Source: Akkermansia muciniphila (lineage in GTDB: Bacteria; Verrucomicrobiota; Verrucomicrobiia; Verrucomicrobiales; Akkermansiaceae). From it: a stretch of 64,000 bases of DNA. A program made the position numbers and the translations under genes. The stretch is taken from positions 62,001 through 126,000 of the forward strand of contig CAMCIC010000002.1 of NCBI GenBank assembly GCA_945874895.1, given 5' to 3'. This document shows, piece after piece, positions 35,729 to 42,637 of this stretch (position 1 is its first letter; every line of letters starts with the position of its first letter). The notes under the pieces were generated by a model that worked only from the letters and a program-made list of their open reading frames with translations, was not told where the DNA came from and made no database searches.

Positions 35729-35810
35729 CCACTTGCAAGAGCCAAGTTTCCGGCGCGAATCCGATTCTTCGCTGGTCAAAAGACTCGGGGTATGCCACAA
35801 TCTGCCCATA

Positions 35811-36359
35811 ATGAAAGCAACGATCTTTTCCCTGCTCTTTGCCGCAAGCTCCTTGCTGCTCGCTCAAAATACCAATAACAACCAGAACAACAATCAGAAC
35901 AACTTGGAAGCGCGGGTCAAAGAGCTCGAAACACCAAGCAATCCTCGTTTTTGGCAATGCAACGTCAATGGCGGTGAGATTATGGTAGCGGTGGATCGCA
36001 TCGGAGCGATCAGCAAAAGCCAATACCTGCTCGATGGCGGACTCCTGTGCACAGAGGTCACGATCGATACACTCGGTGGACAGTCTCTGACCCGGATTTA
36101 TCACGTCGTTCCCGCCACCGAGGCGGTTGCCACAAATGCAGCCACGAAGATGGTGGATCGCGCGAAAGAAGTGGTGAGCAACACCTCGGCGCGCACCGGT
36201 TCCAAGCTTCACGAGATGGTGCAAAAAAGCTACCCCAATACCACCCATGCCCACACCGTGGAATTCCGCGTGATGGATTTGCAAGATCTGGAGGCCCTTT
36301 ACTCCAGCCTCAAAGCGACATGGACATCAGGCAAGGGCCGCACGTTTACGATCCGATGA
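35811..36359 (+). CDS. Secreted protein with Asn/Gln-rich linker, family unknown
   Basis: The ATG at 35811 gives 182 residues. A signal peptide (MKATIFSLLFAASSLLLA) is followed by a tract of Asn and Gln (NTNNNQNNNQNN, about 20-31) and a short predicted helix. The rest (FWQCNVNGGEIMVAVDRIGAISKSQYLL and TRIYHVVPATEAVATNAA) has no family I recognise. Its stop overlaps the start of the next gene by the ATGA pattern, so the two are translationally coupled. Confidence 0.65.
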   Translation: MKATIFSLLFAASSLLLAQNTNNNQNNNQNNLEARVKELETPSNPRFWQCNVNGGEIMVAVDRIGAISKSQYLLDGGLLCTEVTIDTLGGQSLTRIYHVVPATEAVATNAATKMVDRAKEVVSNTSARTGSKLHEMVQKSYPNTTHAHTVEFRVMDLQDLEALYSSLKATWTSGKGRTFTIR

Positions 36360-37248: not shown

Positions 37249-38163
37249 TCACCTGTCGCAAGCTTGTTGAATTCGCGTGAGCAATCGCTCCCAGTGCGGC
37301 AATGACAGACCTCTGCTTTGCGCACGGCGCAGCGGCTCACCCCAGATGGCATCGATCTCCACCTCCCTGCCCTCCTGCCAATCGATGAGACTGCTCGGGC
37401 GATAGGGTCCCATTGGTCGAGTGCGTTCGATGTTCCAATCGATCCATTTCGGATCCAAAACAAATCCTCTGGCTGCAGCGGCACTCACTACTTCATTCAT
37501 CAGTGCGCGAATCTCCGCCACCGTCGTTTCATCCGCAAGCAGAAGGTCCGTGGTTTTTCCTCCCTCAGCAATGGCGAGCCCATTGAACGGCACGTTCCAA
37601 ATCAATTTCTTCCATGCCGTCTCCTCGACGTCTCGCTCCACCACCGTTTCAACCTTCGCCGCCGCAAACATCTCGGCCAAGGCCAGGGACCGACCAGGCA
37701 CCCCGGGGGCAAATTCTCCCATCGCCATTCTGCCACCTGCTGTGTGATGGATCACTCCGGGAGCCATCCGATTGATACAGACAAAACACAGAGCCGCCAT
37801 GACTCGCTCAGCTCCTGTGATTTTGGCGATCGCCTCACAATTGCCCATACCATTTTGCAAGGTAACGACCTGCGTTTTTTCATGCAGCAGTGATGGCAGA
37901 ATGTCCTGCAACATCCTATTGCTGGTTGCCTTCCATGCCACGATCACCAAATCCACAGCACCGATGTCTTCCGCGTTGCGAAAGGCTGGGACGGGGTGGA
38001 GATGAAAATCACCATGGACGCTCTGACATCTGATGCCTTCCCTCAAAACGGCATCATAATCGCTCCGCATGAGAAAGCGGACATCATGTCCAGCTTCAGC
38101 CAACCTTCCGCCGTAATAGAGCCCAATCGCTCCCGATCCTACAATGGCAATGGTGGAAAACAT
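37249..38163 (-). CDS. panE: 2-dehydropantoate 2-reductase (ketopantoate reductase family)
   Basis: The 304 residues start MFSTIAIVGSGAIGLYYGGRLAEAGHDVRFL, a Rossmann motif of the ApbA/PanE family (positions 1-31). Family marks are VVTLQNGMGNCEAIAKI near 98, RVMAALCFVCI, and ETAWKKLIWNVPFNGLAI with the catalytic Lys near 190. The enzyme makes pantoate for coenzyme A. Paralogues in this family also act on other 2-keto acids, so the pantothenate role is likely but not certain. It follows the HDAC-fold gene by 12 bases. Confidence 0.88.
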   Translation of the reverse strand: MFSTIAIVGSGAIGLYYGGRLAEAGHDVRFLMRSDYDAVLREGIRCQSVHGDFHLHPVPAFRNAEDIGAVDLVIVAWKATSNRMLQDILPSLLHEKTQVVTLQNGMGNCEAIAKITGAERVMAALCFVCINRMAPGVIHHTAGGRMAMGEFAPGVPGRSLALAEMFAAAKVETVVERDVEETAWKKLIWNVPFNGLAIAEGGKTTDLLLADETTVAEIRALMNEVVSAAAARGFVLDPKWIDWNIERTRPMGPYRPSSLIDWQEGREVEIDAIWGEPLRRAQSRGLSLPHWERLLTRIQQACDR

Positions 38164-38175
38164 GACGAAAAATGG

Positions 38176-39090
38176 TTAGATGCCGCGATACTCCTGTGCC
38201 AGCTTTTTCGCCATCGCGACCGTGTTGCGATGGATTTTTGCGGTGAATTCCGGTTGGCGATTGTAGCCACCCCCATACAGCACGGCGATGGGAATGCGGT
38301 TGCGAATCATCGCTTTCAATAACACTTCATCGCGTCTTTGCATGTCCTTGAGGGTGAGCATCATTTGACCAAATCGGTCATTGAGATGATTGTCAGCGCC
38401 GGCGATCCAGATCACCAGGTCCGGACTGAACACATCCAAGGCCGCCGCCAAGGTGCTGAAAAGTTGTTTCAAATACATCTCCCCTTCCACGTAGCGCACG
38501 GTTTCCACATCCATTGTTCCCGAACATTGGTTGGTCAGGTAATTTTTACCGACATGGATCGAATAGGTAAAAACGCGCGGGTCGTCCTGCAAAATGGCAT
38601 TCATCCCATTGCCCTGCTGGGCATCCGTATCCACCACCATCACTTTGATGCCAGAACGCCAATCCTGCAAGTCACGGATGGCGGCCGCCACATCATTGAA
38701 GACTGAATAGCCTTCACCATGTTCGCGAAACGCATGGTGGGTGCCGCCCGCAAGACAAACAGCCACGCCTTCCTCCAAGGCGGCACGGCAGGCCATGCGT
38801 GTCGCCTCGACCTCTGTGGCACTGCGACGGTAGAGTTGTGGGGTCACTGGCAACCCGAGACGTAGCTCTTCTTTGCGATCGACCGCACAGCTGTAGATTT
38901 TCCCCAAGTAATCGCGATCATGCACTCGCTGCAAAATGTGCGAATCTGCCATGCGAACTTCCACGATTTCCTCAGGCTTGATCACCCCACCCTCCACCAG
39001 CATGTCTTTCGACACGCGGAATTTGTCCATAGGAAAAGGGTGATCGGAGGGCAAAACCAACTCGAAATCATGGGAATAGAAACAACGCAT
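38176..39090 (-). CDS. Histone-deacetylase-fold protein with a Gln in place of a zinc-ligand His
   Basis: The 304 residues belong to the HDAC/AcuC/class IV family. GGTHHAFREHGEGYSVFNDVAAAI (about 115-138) holds the paired active-site His118/119, and YGGGYNR closes the pocket. The zinc motif of relatives reads D-x-D-x-H-Q-G-N-G. Here it reads DTDAQQGNG, so Asp156 remains but the His ligand is Gln158. The third ligand Asp233 (AGADNH) is present. Codons on the minus strand are CAG CAG, so this is not a misreading of the frame. The change may weaken zinc binding or signal a different chemistry. Lies 12 bases upstream of panE. Confidence 0.88.
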   Translation of the reverse strand: MRCFYSHDFELVLPSDHPFPMDKFRVSKDMLVEGGVIKPEEIVEVRMADSHILQRVHDRDYLGKIYSCAVDRKEELRLGLPVTPQLYRRSATEVEATRMACRAALEEGVAVCLAGGTHHAFREHGEGYSVFNDVAAAIRDLQDWRSGIKVMVVDTDAQQGNGMNAILQDDPRVFTYSIHVGKNYLTNQCSGTMDVETVRYVEGEMYLKQLFSTLAAALDVFSPDLVIWIAGADNHLNDRFGQMMLTLKDMQRRDEVLLKAMIRNRIPIAVLYGGGYNRQPEFTAKIHRNTVAMAKKLAQEYRGI

Positions 39091-39341: not shown

Positions 39342-40862
39342 TCAGGGAGCTTCTTTTTCGCGTTTTTGACCTTTGGTTTTCCCTGTCGAGAACTTGCCAG
39401 TTTGCTTCGGACCGCCCCCGAACTGCTGCCAATACAAAACCTTCAACGGGTTTTGTGCAGGTCCATCGAGATTCTCGTTCACCAGCAAGGGCTGTATCTC
39501 CTGCCACCAGCCGTCATAGTGGGCGCGCAATTGGGAAACCACCTCCGGATGTTGATCGATGACATTTCGCATTTCCCCGGGATCCGCCTTCAGGTCATAA
39601 AGTTCACGATTGTTTACGAGAGAATAATGGGCATTTTGAATCGACATTTTTTGATACTTCGCCTTCTCCGCCTGACCTCGCTCCCAGCGCCCCACATGGT
39701 GCACGAGAATCCGGTCCGACCACTGTGCCGCAGGTTGTTTCATCAACGGCAGCAAACTGCGGCCCTCCACTTGTGATCTTGCCGACTCTGGCATCGTCGC
39801 CCCTGTCATTTCCATCAAGGTGGGAAAAAGATCGAGATGCGCGGTGAGCGCATGGCATTCGCTTCCCGCGGTTACTCCGCCAGCGGGCCAACGCATGAGA
39901 CAGGGAACACGGGTGCCCCCTTGGTAGGGAGTGCCCTTGGTGCCGCGCATGCCAGCAGGGAAAACCCTCGTTCCCACCGTGCCCCCATTGTCACCACCGA
40001 TGTAAATGACCAAGGTATCACGCTCCAAGCCCCAGTCACGCAGCTTGCCTAACAGCTTGCCGAAATTCCGATCGATGTTTTCGATCATGCCAAAAAATTT
40101 CGCTGCGTCCTCATCGACTCCCGGTTTACCCAAGTAGTGTTGGTAATAGGACTCGGGCACGACGAGGGGCGAGTGCGCTGCATTGAGGGTGACATAGGCG
40201 AAAAACGGCGGTTTCTGCTTTCGTGTATCATCGATCCACCGCAGTGCCTGATCGAAAAAAAGATCCGTGCAATACCCGTTGGTTTTGACGAACTTGCCAT
40301 TGTGCCAGAGAGCTGGATTCATGTTGGTATTGCCGGGGGCATCGCCACACGAACCGGGGTAAGTCTGCCCGATTCCACCGCCACCGTGGATGTAGACTTC
40401 ATCAAAGCCACGGCTCTCAGGACGATATTCCGCCTCATCTCCCAGATGCCATTTGCCGAAAATCCCGGTCGTGTAGCCCACAGATTTGAGCATTTGTGGC
40501 AGCGTATAGGTCTTGAGACTGAGTCGTTCGCGTTCGGAGATGGTATGCGTGACACCGTTTTTGAACTCATGCCTACCGCTCATCAAGGCGGAACGCGTGG
40601 GTGCACAGGTGGGGCTGACATGAAATTGGCGAAAAAGCAGGCTTTGTTGGCGAAACCCATCCACCGATGGAGTTTTGATCACCGGATTCCCCATGCATGC
40701 GTAATCACCGTATCCCACATCGTCGGGCATCACGAGAATGATGTTTGGCTGGCTCGTCGCACCAAGCGAAACCATCGATAGAAACAAAGCCTGTGAAAGC
40801 ACCGCAACCGAGCAACCGCCTAGGGAAAATCGGAGTAACATTCTTTTTCGCATGGGATTCAT
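39342..40862 (-). CDS. Secreted arylsulfatase-type sulfatase
   Basis: The ATG at 40862 (or 40853) gives about 506 residues with a signal peptide ending near GATS. The alkaline phosphatase-superfamily core shows NIILVMPDDVGYGD (metal ligands), SPTCAPTRSALMSGR with the formylglycine Cys86 of C-x-P-x-R, GIFGKWHLGD and VIYIGGDNGG. The C-terminal tail is Lys/Gly-rich. Such enzymes remove sulfate from polysaccharides or glycans outside the cytoplasm. No formylglycine-generating enzyme is in the window. It is divergent from the DUF4407 gene with 89 bases between starts. Confidence 0.93.
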   Translation of the reverse strand: MNPMRKRMLLRFSLGGCSVAVLSQALFLSMVSLGATSQPNIILVMPDDVGYGDYACMGNPVIKTPSVDGFRQQSLLFRQFHVSPTCAPTRSALMSGRHEFKNGVTHTISERERLSLKTYTLPQMLKSVGYTTGIFGKWHLGDEAEYRPESRGFDEVYIHGGGGIGQTYPGSCGDAPGNTNMNPALWHNGKFVKTNGYCTDLFFDQALRWIDDTRKQKPPFFAYVTLNAAHSPLVVPESYYQHYLGKPGVDEDAAKFFGMIENIDRNFGKLLGKLRDWGLERDTLVIYIGGDNGGTVGTRVFPAGMRGTKGTPYQGGTRVPCLMRWPAGGVTAGSECHALTAHLDLFPTLMEMTGATMPESARSQVEGRSLLPLMKQPAAQWSDRILVHHVGRWERGQAEKAKYQKMSIQNAHYSLVNNRELYDLKADPGEMRNVIDQHPEVVSQLRAHYDGWWQEIQPLLVNENLDGPAQNPLKVLYWQQFGGGPKQTGKFSTGKTKGQKREKEAP

Positions 40863-40951
40863 ACAGCGACAGCGGACGCTTCTTTGCAAAGAACCAAAAA
40901 ATCGATCGACGCCATGATAATTCGACCTTTCGCGGGCGTAGAGGTAGTTTG

Positions 40952-42637
40952 ATGAAAAGCTCACCAATCAAACGATTTTTCTTCTGGCTCTCTGGAGCCG
41001 GCAGCGAAACCCTGGAGCAATGCCCGAATTGGGAGCAGCGCAAGTATGTGGCATTCGGCTGCACGGTCCTCGTGCCTTGCGCTTTTGCCTTCATCGCCTG
41101 CGCCTACGCCTTGTCCACCCTCACCGATCGCCCCGTGGTGATCTACGGCGTGGCTACCGTATGGGCCTTCATCATTTTGAGCATCGACCGCGCGCTGCTC
41201 GCTTCCTATCGGCCGTTCATGTCATTTTTCCGGAAAATCGGACAGTTTGCCCTGCGTTTCGTCGTCGCCATGCTGATGGGTATCACCATCGCCCACCCCA
41301 TGGTGCTGTTGCTGTTTCGCGACACCATTTCCACTGTGATCGAGGCTGATCGCTATGTGGCAATCGAAAACACGCGGAAACATTTTGACACAGAAAAGGC
41401 CAGTGTGCGCAGAAATATCACCGCACTCGAAGCCAACATCGCCGAGCAACGGCAGAAATGGAACGAATCCTTTCAGGCGAAATTCATCATTCAGGAAAAC
41501 GAGGATGCATCCACCCAGGTGCCGGGCCTGACCGCAGCCCAGCAAGCGGAGCTAAAAAAAGCCACCGACGAGGCGACGAAACCGTTCACAGAACGACTCA
41601 CAGCGATCGAGGCACAATCCGCCGAACTGACGCCGCAATACAACAAGATCCAAACCGAACTGGGCTACTGGCAAGCAGAATTCGAGCGCGAACTCAACGG
41701 CCAGCGCTCCGGACTTTCGGGAGAAGGCCCGCGCGCGCGCTCCATCCGCTCCGACCAACTCGATCCACGCCGCGAAGATGCCCGCAGGCTCGGCGGACTG
41801 CTGGAACACTTGACGACGGAAAAAAAGGCCCTCGAATCGCAAATCCGCTCAGCCGAGGCATCCGCCATCGCTGCGTTTGAAGAAAAACTCAAGGAAATCG
41901 AACTGGCCAACGTCGCTGAACAGGAGCGCGTCGCCGAACTCAAACGCAAAGTAGAAAGCGACCAAGCCGCCGCCTTCACTGCCCAACAAAACGCCTTGCG
42001 GGAGACCATCAAACAACAGATCGATACGAGACTGACCGAACTCGCTCGCGTGCAAGAGGAACTCTCACGCGTGGCCGCCGATGAGCGATCCACCATCGAT
42101 GCTCTGCGGGCTGAACCGCGCAAGGATGTGCTGACCCAGACATTGGCACTCCACAAGCTCTTCGAAGACGGCAACAAGGGCGGCTCATTCGCCTACTTCA
42201 CCTACCTCATTCTCACCGCCCTTTTCATGCTGGTGGACACCATTCCGCTCATTGTGAAGTTTTTCACCAAAACCGGACCCTACGATGCCTTGCTGGACCG
42301 GGAAGAGCGATCCATCGATGGCGAGCACAAGAATTTCGTCAAACATCACAAGCACTACATGACCCAGTCATCGGTCAGCAATCTTTTCGGCGTCACCCGC
42401 AACAAGCGCTTGGAAGCCGCGTTGGTGGATGGCGTGGAGCATTCGCGCGCCGCACGCGAGTTCATCGACAGCCTGATCGAGATGGAACAGGCCTTCGCGG
42501 AAAAAATGAAACAACAAGAAGCCCTGCGCGAACAGTCCTCTCCCGAACAAATCGCCGCCCTAGAAGCGATGAAAAAGAGTTTCTATGAGGACCTGCATCG
42601 CCGCATGCAAACTTTCTTCCAACCCCAGGCAAGCTGA
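40952..42637 (+). CDS. DUF4407 membrane protein with long coiled coil
   Basis: The ATG at 40952, preceded by a GAGG ribosome-binding site, gives 561 residues. The N-terminal part (WLSGAGSETLEQCPNWEQRKYVAFG, then hydrophobic segments at about 33-85 and 95-122) is diagnostic for DUF4407. A long Glu/Ala/Lys/Arg-rich coiled coil spans about 140-400, followed by a further membrane segment (YFTYLILTALFMLVDTIPLI, ~414-433) and a cytoplasmic tail. The function of the family is unknown; the architecture suggests a large periplasmic or cytoplasmic stalk between membrane segments. It ends 12 bases before the DCC gene. Confidence 0.88.
   Translation: MKSSPIKRFFFWLSGAGSETLEQCPNWEQRKYVAFGCTVLVPCAFAFIACAYALSTLTDRPVVIYGVATVWAFIILSIDRALLASYRPFMSFFRKIGQFALRFVVAMLMGITIAHPMVLLLFRDTISTVIEADRYVAIENTRKHFDTEKASVRRNITALEANIAEQRQKWNESFQAKFIIQENEDASTQVPGLTAAQQAELKKATDEATKPFTERLTAIEAQSAELTPQYNKIQTELGYWQAEFERELNGQRSGLSGEGPRARSIRSDQLDPRREDARRLGGLLEHLTTEKKALESQIRSAEASAIAAFEEKLKEIELANVAEQERVAELKRKVESDQAAAFTAQQNALRETIKQQIDTRLTELARVQEELSRVAADERSTIDALRAEPRKDVLTQTLALHKLFEDGNKGGSFAYFTYLILTALFMLVDTIPLIVKFFTKTGPYDALLDREERSIDGEHKNFVKHHKHYMTQSSVSNLFGVTRNKRLEAALVDGVEHSRAAREFIDSLIEMEQAFAEKMKQQEALREQSSPEQIAALEAMKKSFYEDLHRRMQTFFQPQAS

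Follow-up and report, generated by a model that had tools for sequence, protein, structure and literature searches.

A class IV-type HDAC-fold protein of Akkermansia muciniphila with glutamine in place of a zinc-ligand histidine, and recurrent loss of active-site residues among its Akkermansiaceae orthologs

Results

An HDAC-fold gene next to panE

The window analysed here is a stretch of 64,000 nucleotides from Akkermansia muciniphila, in which positions 38176..39090 of the minus strand encode a protein of 304 amino acids that begins with ATG, contains no internal stop codon and matches the PF00850 profile with 162.8 bits against a curated cut-off of 27.9. Only 12 bp downstream and on the same strand lies panE/apbA (37249..38163), whose product is a 2-dehydropantoate 2-reductase (TIGR00745, 220.9 bits against a cut-off of 141.35). 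A sulfatase gene (PF00884, SGSH_C; 39342-40967, minus strand) is located directly upstream, in an adjacency that is not conserved beside the orthologs. Convergent with panE is the gene for a metallo-beta-lactamase-fold protein (PF00753; 36047-37165, plus strand), the true start of which is probably further in because its GTG start overlaps an open reading frame at 35733-36359, and a profile match identifies a DUF4407 protein (PF14362) at 40745-42637 of the plus strand.

The original prediction, which was made from the DNA letters and their open reading frames, described this gene as an otherwise intact member of the HDAC fold in close order with panE, and on each of these points the analysis agrees. 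An AlphaFold2 model built with 47 sequences has the arginase/deacetylase alpha/beta fold with a pLDDT of 94.5, its lowest confidence falling in block 181-190 (mean pLDDT 72), and it superimposes with a TM-score of 0.94 on 9gky and 0.89 on 9gz5. The best solved relatives by sequence are 9RJE (2e-49), 9GKV (2.7e-35) and 9GZ5 (1.1e-33), the next match being at 2.8e-19. The first of these is chrHDAC11-1/A of Chlamydomonas, as identified in PMC13325672, while 9GKV and 9GKY are HdaH of Vibrio cholerae and 9GZ5 is HDAC11 of Leptospira. Class IV (HDAC11-like) structures are thus nearest by both sequence and fold, ahead of those of classes I and II, and the window gene encodes a classical deacylase fold of class IV type; within that class, the best match (9RJE) hints at an affinity to clade A.

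Glutamine at codon 158

The zinc ligands of HDAC8 are D178, H180 and D267 (PMC9563588). By the standard mapping, the corresponding ligand positions of the window protein are Asp156, residue 158 and Asp233, and its catalytic residues are His118, His119 and Tyr276. Codon 158 (38617..38619, minus strand; plus-strand letters ctg) is CAG in an intact frame, which confirms the proposal that Gln has replaced the zinc-ligand His. The motif therefore reads DTDAQQGNG, in which codon 159, also CAG, specifies the usual Gln of HQG. That relatives carry D-x-D-x-H-Q-G likewise proved correct, since His158 is found in 9 of 9 other same-genus proteins (as CAT or CAC), in 132 of 149 Akkermansiaceae orthologs and in 56 of 56 proteins from other phyla.

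All other canonical residues are present, including those that the original prediction had listed as kept (His118/119, Asp156 and Asp233). On the minus strand these are the His118-His119 pair (38734..38739), both aspartates of Asp154-Thr155-Asp156 (38623..38631), Asp233 (38392..38394) and the catalytic Tyr276 (38263..38265). The window protein thus has six of the seven canonical residues (H118, H119, D154, D156, D233 and Y276), with a complete catalytic His pair and Tyr and with a zinc-ligand triad of Asp, His and Asp that is incomplete at position 158 only.

Recurrent loss of catalytic residues in the family

At an ortholog cut-off of E 1e-60, 152 of 260 family genomes had a match, and we compared 149 distinct Akkermansiaceae orthologs from genera that include Roseibacillus, Luteolibacter, Haloferula and Rubritalea. 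Five distant HDACs (L026-L030), a fragment (L170), duplicate gene copies and three genomes with an unlisted or partial match (G248, G252 and G266) were left out of the counts. Scoring of the seven canonical residues (H118, H119, D154, D156, H158, D233 and Y276) showed that all are kept in 119 orthologs and that at least one is gone in 30, spread over 8 of 10 genera. Losses were counted most often at H158 (17), followed by Y276 (13), H119 (12), D156 (6) and D233 (6), and none were seen at H118 or D154. In three Rubritalea proteins, four of the seven residues are missing. All ten genomes of the window's genus carry the gene, which has lost a catalytic residue in three of them, the other two (G004 and G008) having Cys for Tyr276.

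Among relatives from nine other phyla, represented by 56 of 80 loci, 55 keep all seven residues and the sole exception (L237) has D154A. The direction of change is therefore loss from an ancestor with a complete site. Because all seven residues are kept in 119 of the 149 orthologs, selection on the chemistry appears to continue in most of the family.

A tree from which the seven columns had been omitted requires 11 changes between intact and lost states, six of which are forced by starred, that is, well-supported, branches. Removing another 13 columns of the pocket leaves both figures unchanged, and H158 alone then requires 8 changes between wild-type and lost. A single clade for the 17 rows without His158 is rejected (p-AU 0.005), this group having been named after the alignment was viewed. 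Since the trees come from quick searches and have many weak branches, 11 is the figure for the best tree and 6 is the safer floor. On these sequence comparisons, the active site would have suffered losses independently about 11 times in the Akkermansiaceae, Gln158 being one such case.

Replacements at position 158 are diverse, with Asp in 5, Ala in 4, Arg in 4, Gln in 3 and Thr in 1 of the 17 rows. The three Gln158 proteins (L001 of the window, L145 and L159) belong to three separate lineages, and the other two lack further catalytic residues, L145 being without Tyr276 and L159 without His119 and Asp233. The alignment against related families that the original prediction had called for accordingly revealed no clade that shares Gln, and a clade with Gln158 as its standard residue is ruled out; nine same-genus orthologs carry His, so Gln158 is no clade rule. 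Nor did the 149 orthologs include a related group whose active members carry this Gln as a rule.

Gln can occasionally bind metal, and because only one residue is gone, residual activity in the window protein is possible. One can accordingly imagine that the protein is still a metallo-deacylase, with the side-chain oxygen of Gln158 holding zinc or another divalent metal and with altered or slow activity. The retention of Asp156, Asp233, His118, His119 and Tyr276 and the full fold of the predicted model would be compatible with such an enzyme, which we nevertheless regard as unlikely. Replacements elsewhere in the family offer no consistent ligand, the other Gln158 proteins have lost Tyr276 or both His119 and Asp233, and residues of the substrate channel decay in parallel (see below). 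Moreover, trypanosome DAC3 lost its activity on mutation H316A, which removes the zinc-ligand His at the equivalent position (PMC2941730), and for this reason the window protein probably has little or no activity. The suggestions of another metal and of a compensating change made in the original prediction therefore fare poorly, as the 17 rows without His158 contain neither a consistent replacement ligand nor a consistent compensating residue.

Decay of the pocket and channel

Changes within the family were counted in 146 rows, the Rubritalea trio being excluded, at the 53 columns for which conservation among the 56 outgroup proteins is 98% or more. No change in any of the 146 rows, 27 of them lost, was seen at 27 of these 53 columns. 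The columns that changed most are mainly pocket or active-site positions, namely P185 (23 changes), N183 (21), K188 (20), G127 (13), C129 (9) and H158 (9), followed by Y276 (7), D156 (5) and Q159 (5); also among the most changed are G68, T117, P20 and D249, the last being Asp or Glu in the family. Loop 181-188, to which several of these residues belong, is presumed by us from HDAC structures to line the acyl channel.

Several of these positions follow the fate of the active site. Cys129 is present in 56 of 56 outgroup proteins and in 96% of intact orthologs, compared with 30% of lost rows outside Rubritalea, where 19 of 27 lost orthologs have Ser129. K188 falls from 97% of intact rows to 22% of lost rows, and P185 from 89% to 11%. 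Across the family, P185, N183, K188, G181 and C129 disappear together with catalysis. This pattern speaks against an inactive acyl-lysine reader, whose pocket would bind an acylated ligand without cutting it. Although the window protein retains its His pair and Tyr276 as well as part of the channel, residues that vanish together with catalysis are the opposite of what a reader needs, and we consider this explanation very improbable. The 'inactive binder' of the original prediction thus survives in its first word, which the sequence comparisons support well, whereas binding is weakened by the changes in loop 181-188 and at C129.

The window protein carries this signature in addition to H158Q. 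It has Ser129 instead of Cys (38704..38706, minus strand), Met163 where nearly all relatives have Thr adjoining the D-x-D-x-H-Q-G-N-G motif (38602..38604, minus strand), and P185L and K188Q in the loop at 185-188 (38527..38538, minus strand), which is usually decayed where the active site is gone; a further change, G68C, is common to its genus mates. Conservation of C129, T163, P185 and K188 among the 56 outgroup proteins is 98-100%, and all four are altered here. The window protein departs at five of the 41 non-catalytic columns that are invariant in the outgroup; just two of the 119 intact orthologs reach this number, while lost rows range from 1 to 14. The intact rows L158 and L161 also have many pocket changes. 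Relative to three sisters, the window lineage has 15 derived changes, five of which fall at positions 129, 158, 163, 188 and 236, and none of the 13 derived changes of the sisters occurs at any of these five.

These changes also bear on whether Gln158 is simply a single-base error of sequencing or assembly. Gln158 occurs in just one genome of the species and is one base away from CAT or CAC, as an error would be. However, a lone error fails to explain the whole pattern, because C129, T163, P185 and K188 of the same protein also depart from the consensus at near-invariant columns, and 29 other orthologs show like losses with varied codons at 158. We consider an error highly implausible.

The statistical association of pocket change with loss needs to be read with relatedness in mind. 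A Mann-Whitney test gives p 2.7e-16 but ignores relatedness and hence is no proof. Among six phylogenetically independent pairs, C129 points in the same direction (about 3.2 against 0.3), and none of the single columns listed reaches significance over these pairs because just six starred pairs exist. Likewise, 27 of the 30 lost rows show no change at 21 structural columns, but these columns were chosen from unchanged ones, so that the observation is circular and is not evidence.

Purifying selection within lost clades

If a deacylase had merely become unneeded, its gene might be on the way out, and the proteins seen here would be young, decaying relics caught before disruption of the reading frame. 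Two observations lean that way, since the terminal branch of the window protein is longer than those of its three sisters (0.13 vs 0.023-0.059) and several of its pocket residues are altered. Relics, however, should show rising dN/dS. By the NG86 method, dN/dS is 0.02-0.14 in lost clades where dS could be estimated, compared with 0.01-0.18 for intact pairs, although the dS of many pairs, some of them lost, was saturated. The lost clades thus combine loss of catalytic residues with continued purifying selection, and the Rubritalea pair L168-L169, despite the absence of four residues, has a value of 0.036. In addition, the listed frames have no stops, and the 27 outgroup-invariant columns that never change include the lost rows in their constancy. 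Gradual disappearance of the gene is therefore a doubtful explanation.

For ten same-genus genes, a codon model yields an overall and background omega of 0.035 and a value of 0.038 on the window branch, and no relaxed selection on that branch was detected by this comparison (2dL 0.05). The window branch has a dS near 1 and its omega mixes the time before and after H158Q, so this value is no proof of selection after the loss. The two tips with Tyr-to-Cys, for which omega is 0.040, reflect an older loss because the change is common to both.

Association with panE

A panE relative is found downstream of the hdac gene on the same strand in 53 genomes of 7 genera, with a median gap of about 9 bp and in most cases no more than tens of bases, and this pairing includes lost lineages in genera g1, g7, g9, g15 and g16. 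Most g13 members lack it, and no case was observed in g10, g11 or g12; PanE is therefore no obligatory operon partner. No other conserved neighbour among the first 16 neighbour clusters is nearly as widespread. The genome of the window has panB and panC, and among its ApbA matches just the panE product scores strongly (138.7 bits, compared with 30.4 and 20.6). Judged from this gene content, the window PanE probably serves the CoA pathway as its ketopantoate reductase.

Discussion

We consider the window protein to be a recently formed pseudo-deacylase of class IV type that has been kept for a non-catalytic role, one its active ancestor probably already had, and we would put the chance that this is correct at roughly two in three. 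Without His158, metal binding at Asp156 and Asp233 would be weak or absent, and positions of the acyl-chain channel (C129S, P185L, K188Q and T163M) are already drifting. The family protein would then have two jobs, of which one, acyl hydrolysis, has been dispensable about eleven times, and the other depends on the scaffold and does not need zinc. Repeated loss of the site while the rest of the protein is kept suggests such a second job, for which the chemistry may not be needed. Two jobs are also most likely because the protein appears to be under purifying selection despite the loss, as are the lineages in which loss came earlier. One point against a pseudoenzyme is that the window protein lacks just one of the seven residues. 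The alternatives fit less well, as a relic predicts rising dN/dS, a new metal predicts consistent replacements and a reader predicts a kept channel. Another metal, or binding of the old substrate, is made less likely by replacements that are inconsistent and by a pocket that decays.

The most economical second job for the pseudo-deacylase would be binding and regulation of a partner. Given the pairing of hdac with panE, PanE would be the leading candidate, and the protein might in this way be tied to pantothenate and CoA supply. A partly similar arrangement is known from Escherichia coli. PanZ has a GNAT fold. As the activator of PanD, it is an example of an acyltransferase-type fold that partners an enzyme of the pantothenate pathway (PMC3496974), though fold and partner are both different from those of hdac and PanE, and the likeness is one of analogy alone.

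A bolder version of this scenario is that in Akkermansiaceae the main, selected function of the class IV HDAC gene is non-catalytic even in proteins with a complete zinc site, for example as a structural regulator of PanE and, through it, of CoA supply, that deacylation is an optional activity that can be lost, and that the species of the window has no recognisable active lysine deacetylase. We offer this tentatively and expect it to be clearly less likely to hold than to fail. A recent survey of 2026 describes clade A proteins as having no detectable peptide deacylase activity despite a complete site (PMC13325672). The window genome (G000; 2.92 Mb in 26 contigs, 97% complete) encodes one PF00850 protein, the one described here. 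At E 0.001 it yielded no SIR2 match, while three of the ten genus genomes did. The species may thus possess no functional lysine deacetylase, either classical or sirtuin-type. Across the family, a second HDAC does not seem to have taken over where the site was lost; a hand tally gave a single PF00850 match for 11 of the 30 genomes with losses and 50 of the 119 without (Fisher p 0.68), a count blurred by incomplete assemblies. Genus g3 has no PF00850 match in any of its 20 listed genomes, and 11 of the 16 family genera have one.

Proteins with an HDAC fold and no catalysis are not without precedent. Human HDAC10 has a pseudo-deacetylase domain that likewise keeps the fold without the chemistry (PMC11532494). 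That domain, however, is a C-terminal one fused to an active one, whereas the window protein is free-standing and its kind of loss has occurred many times among orthologs. Class IV HDACs such as HdaH (9GKV/9GKY) and chrHDAC11-1/A (9RJE) share the fold, and the D-x-D-x-H-Q-G-N-G type of motif is seen in the orthologs of the window protein; a complete zinc site is seen in the published structures of clades A and B (PMC13325672), in contrast to Gln158 in the window protein. A search of the openly accessible literature, supplements aside, listed no paper on active-site loss in HDACs of Verrucomicrobiota, and the string 'verrucomicrob' has no occurrence in the main text of PMC11532494 or PMC13325672. 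What would be new is the repeated origin of free-standing bacterial class IV pseudo-deacylases among orthologs; the fold and the idea of a pseudo-deacetylase domain were known.

For bacterial class IV (HDAC11-like) proteins, about eleven independent losses, together with intact orthologs in the same genus, provide a comparison that separates catalytic from non-catalytic functions. The window protein and a same-genus ortholog (L002) that is 89% identical and has His158 constitute a ready-made test pair. There is also a caution for annotation, in that 'histone deacetylase' assigned from the domain is doubtful with regard to activity in about a fifth of these proteins (30 of 149), and acetylome studies in these bacteria cannot presume that a working deacetylase is present.

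Some individual family members have features of their own. Residues 108-116 of the L158 protein (genome G229) contain a cluster of changes, G108R, A114E, G115R and G116V, just before an intact His pair, suggestive of a faulty assembly or of a local frameshift that was compensated. The proteins of Rubritalea and relatives (L167 at 1841-2740, L168, L169, L192, L193 and L195) retain the HDAC fold with four of the seven catalytic residues gone; they show the pattern H N D D D S N, a mutual identity of about 85% and a model pLDDT of 90.7.
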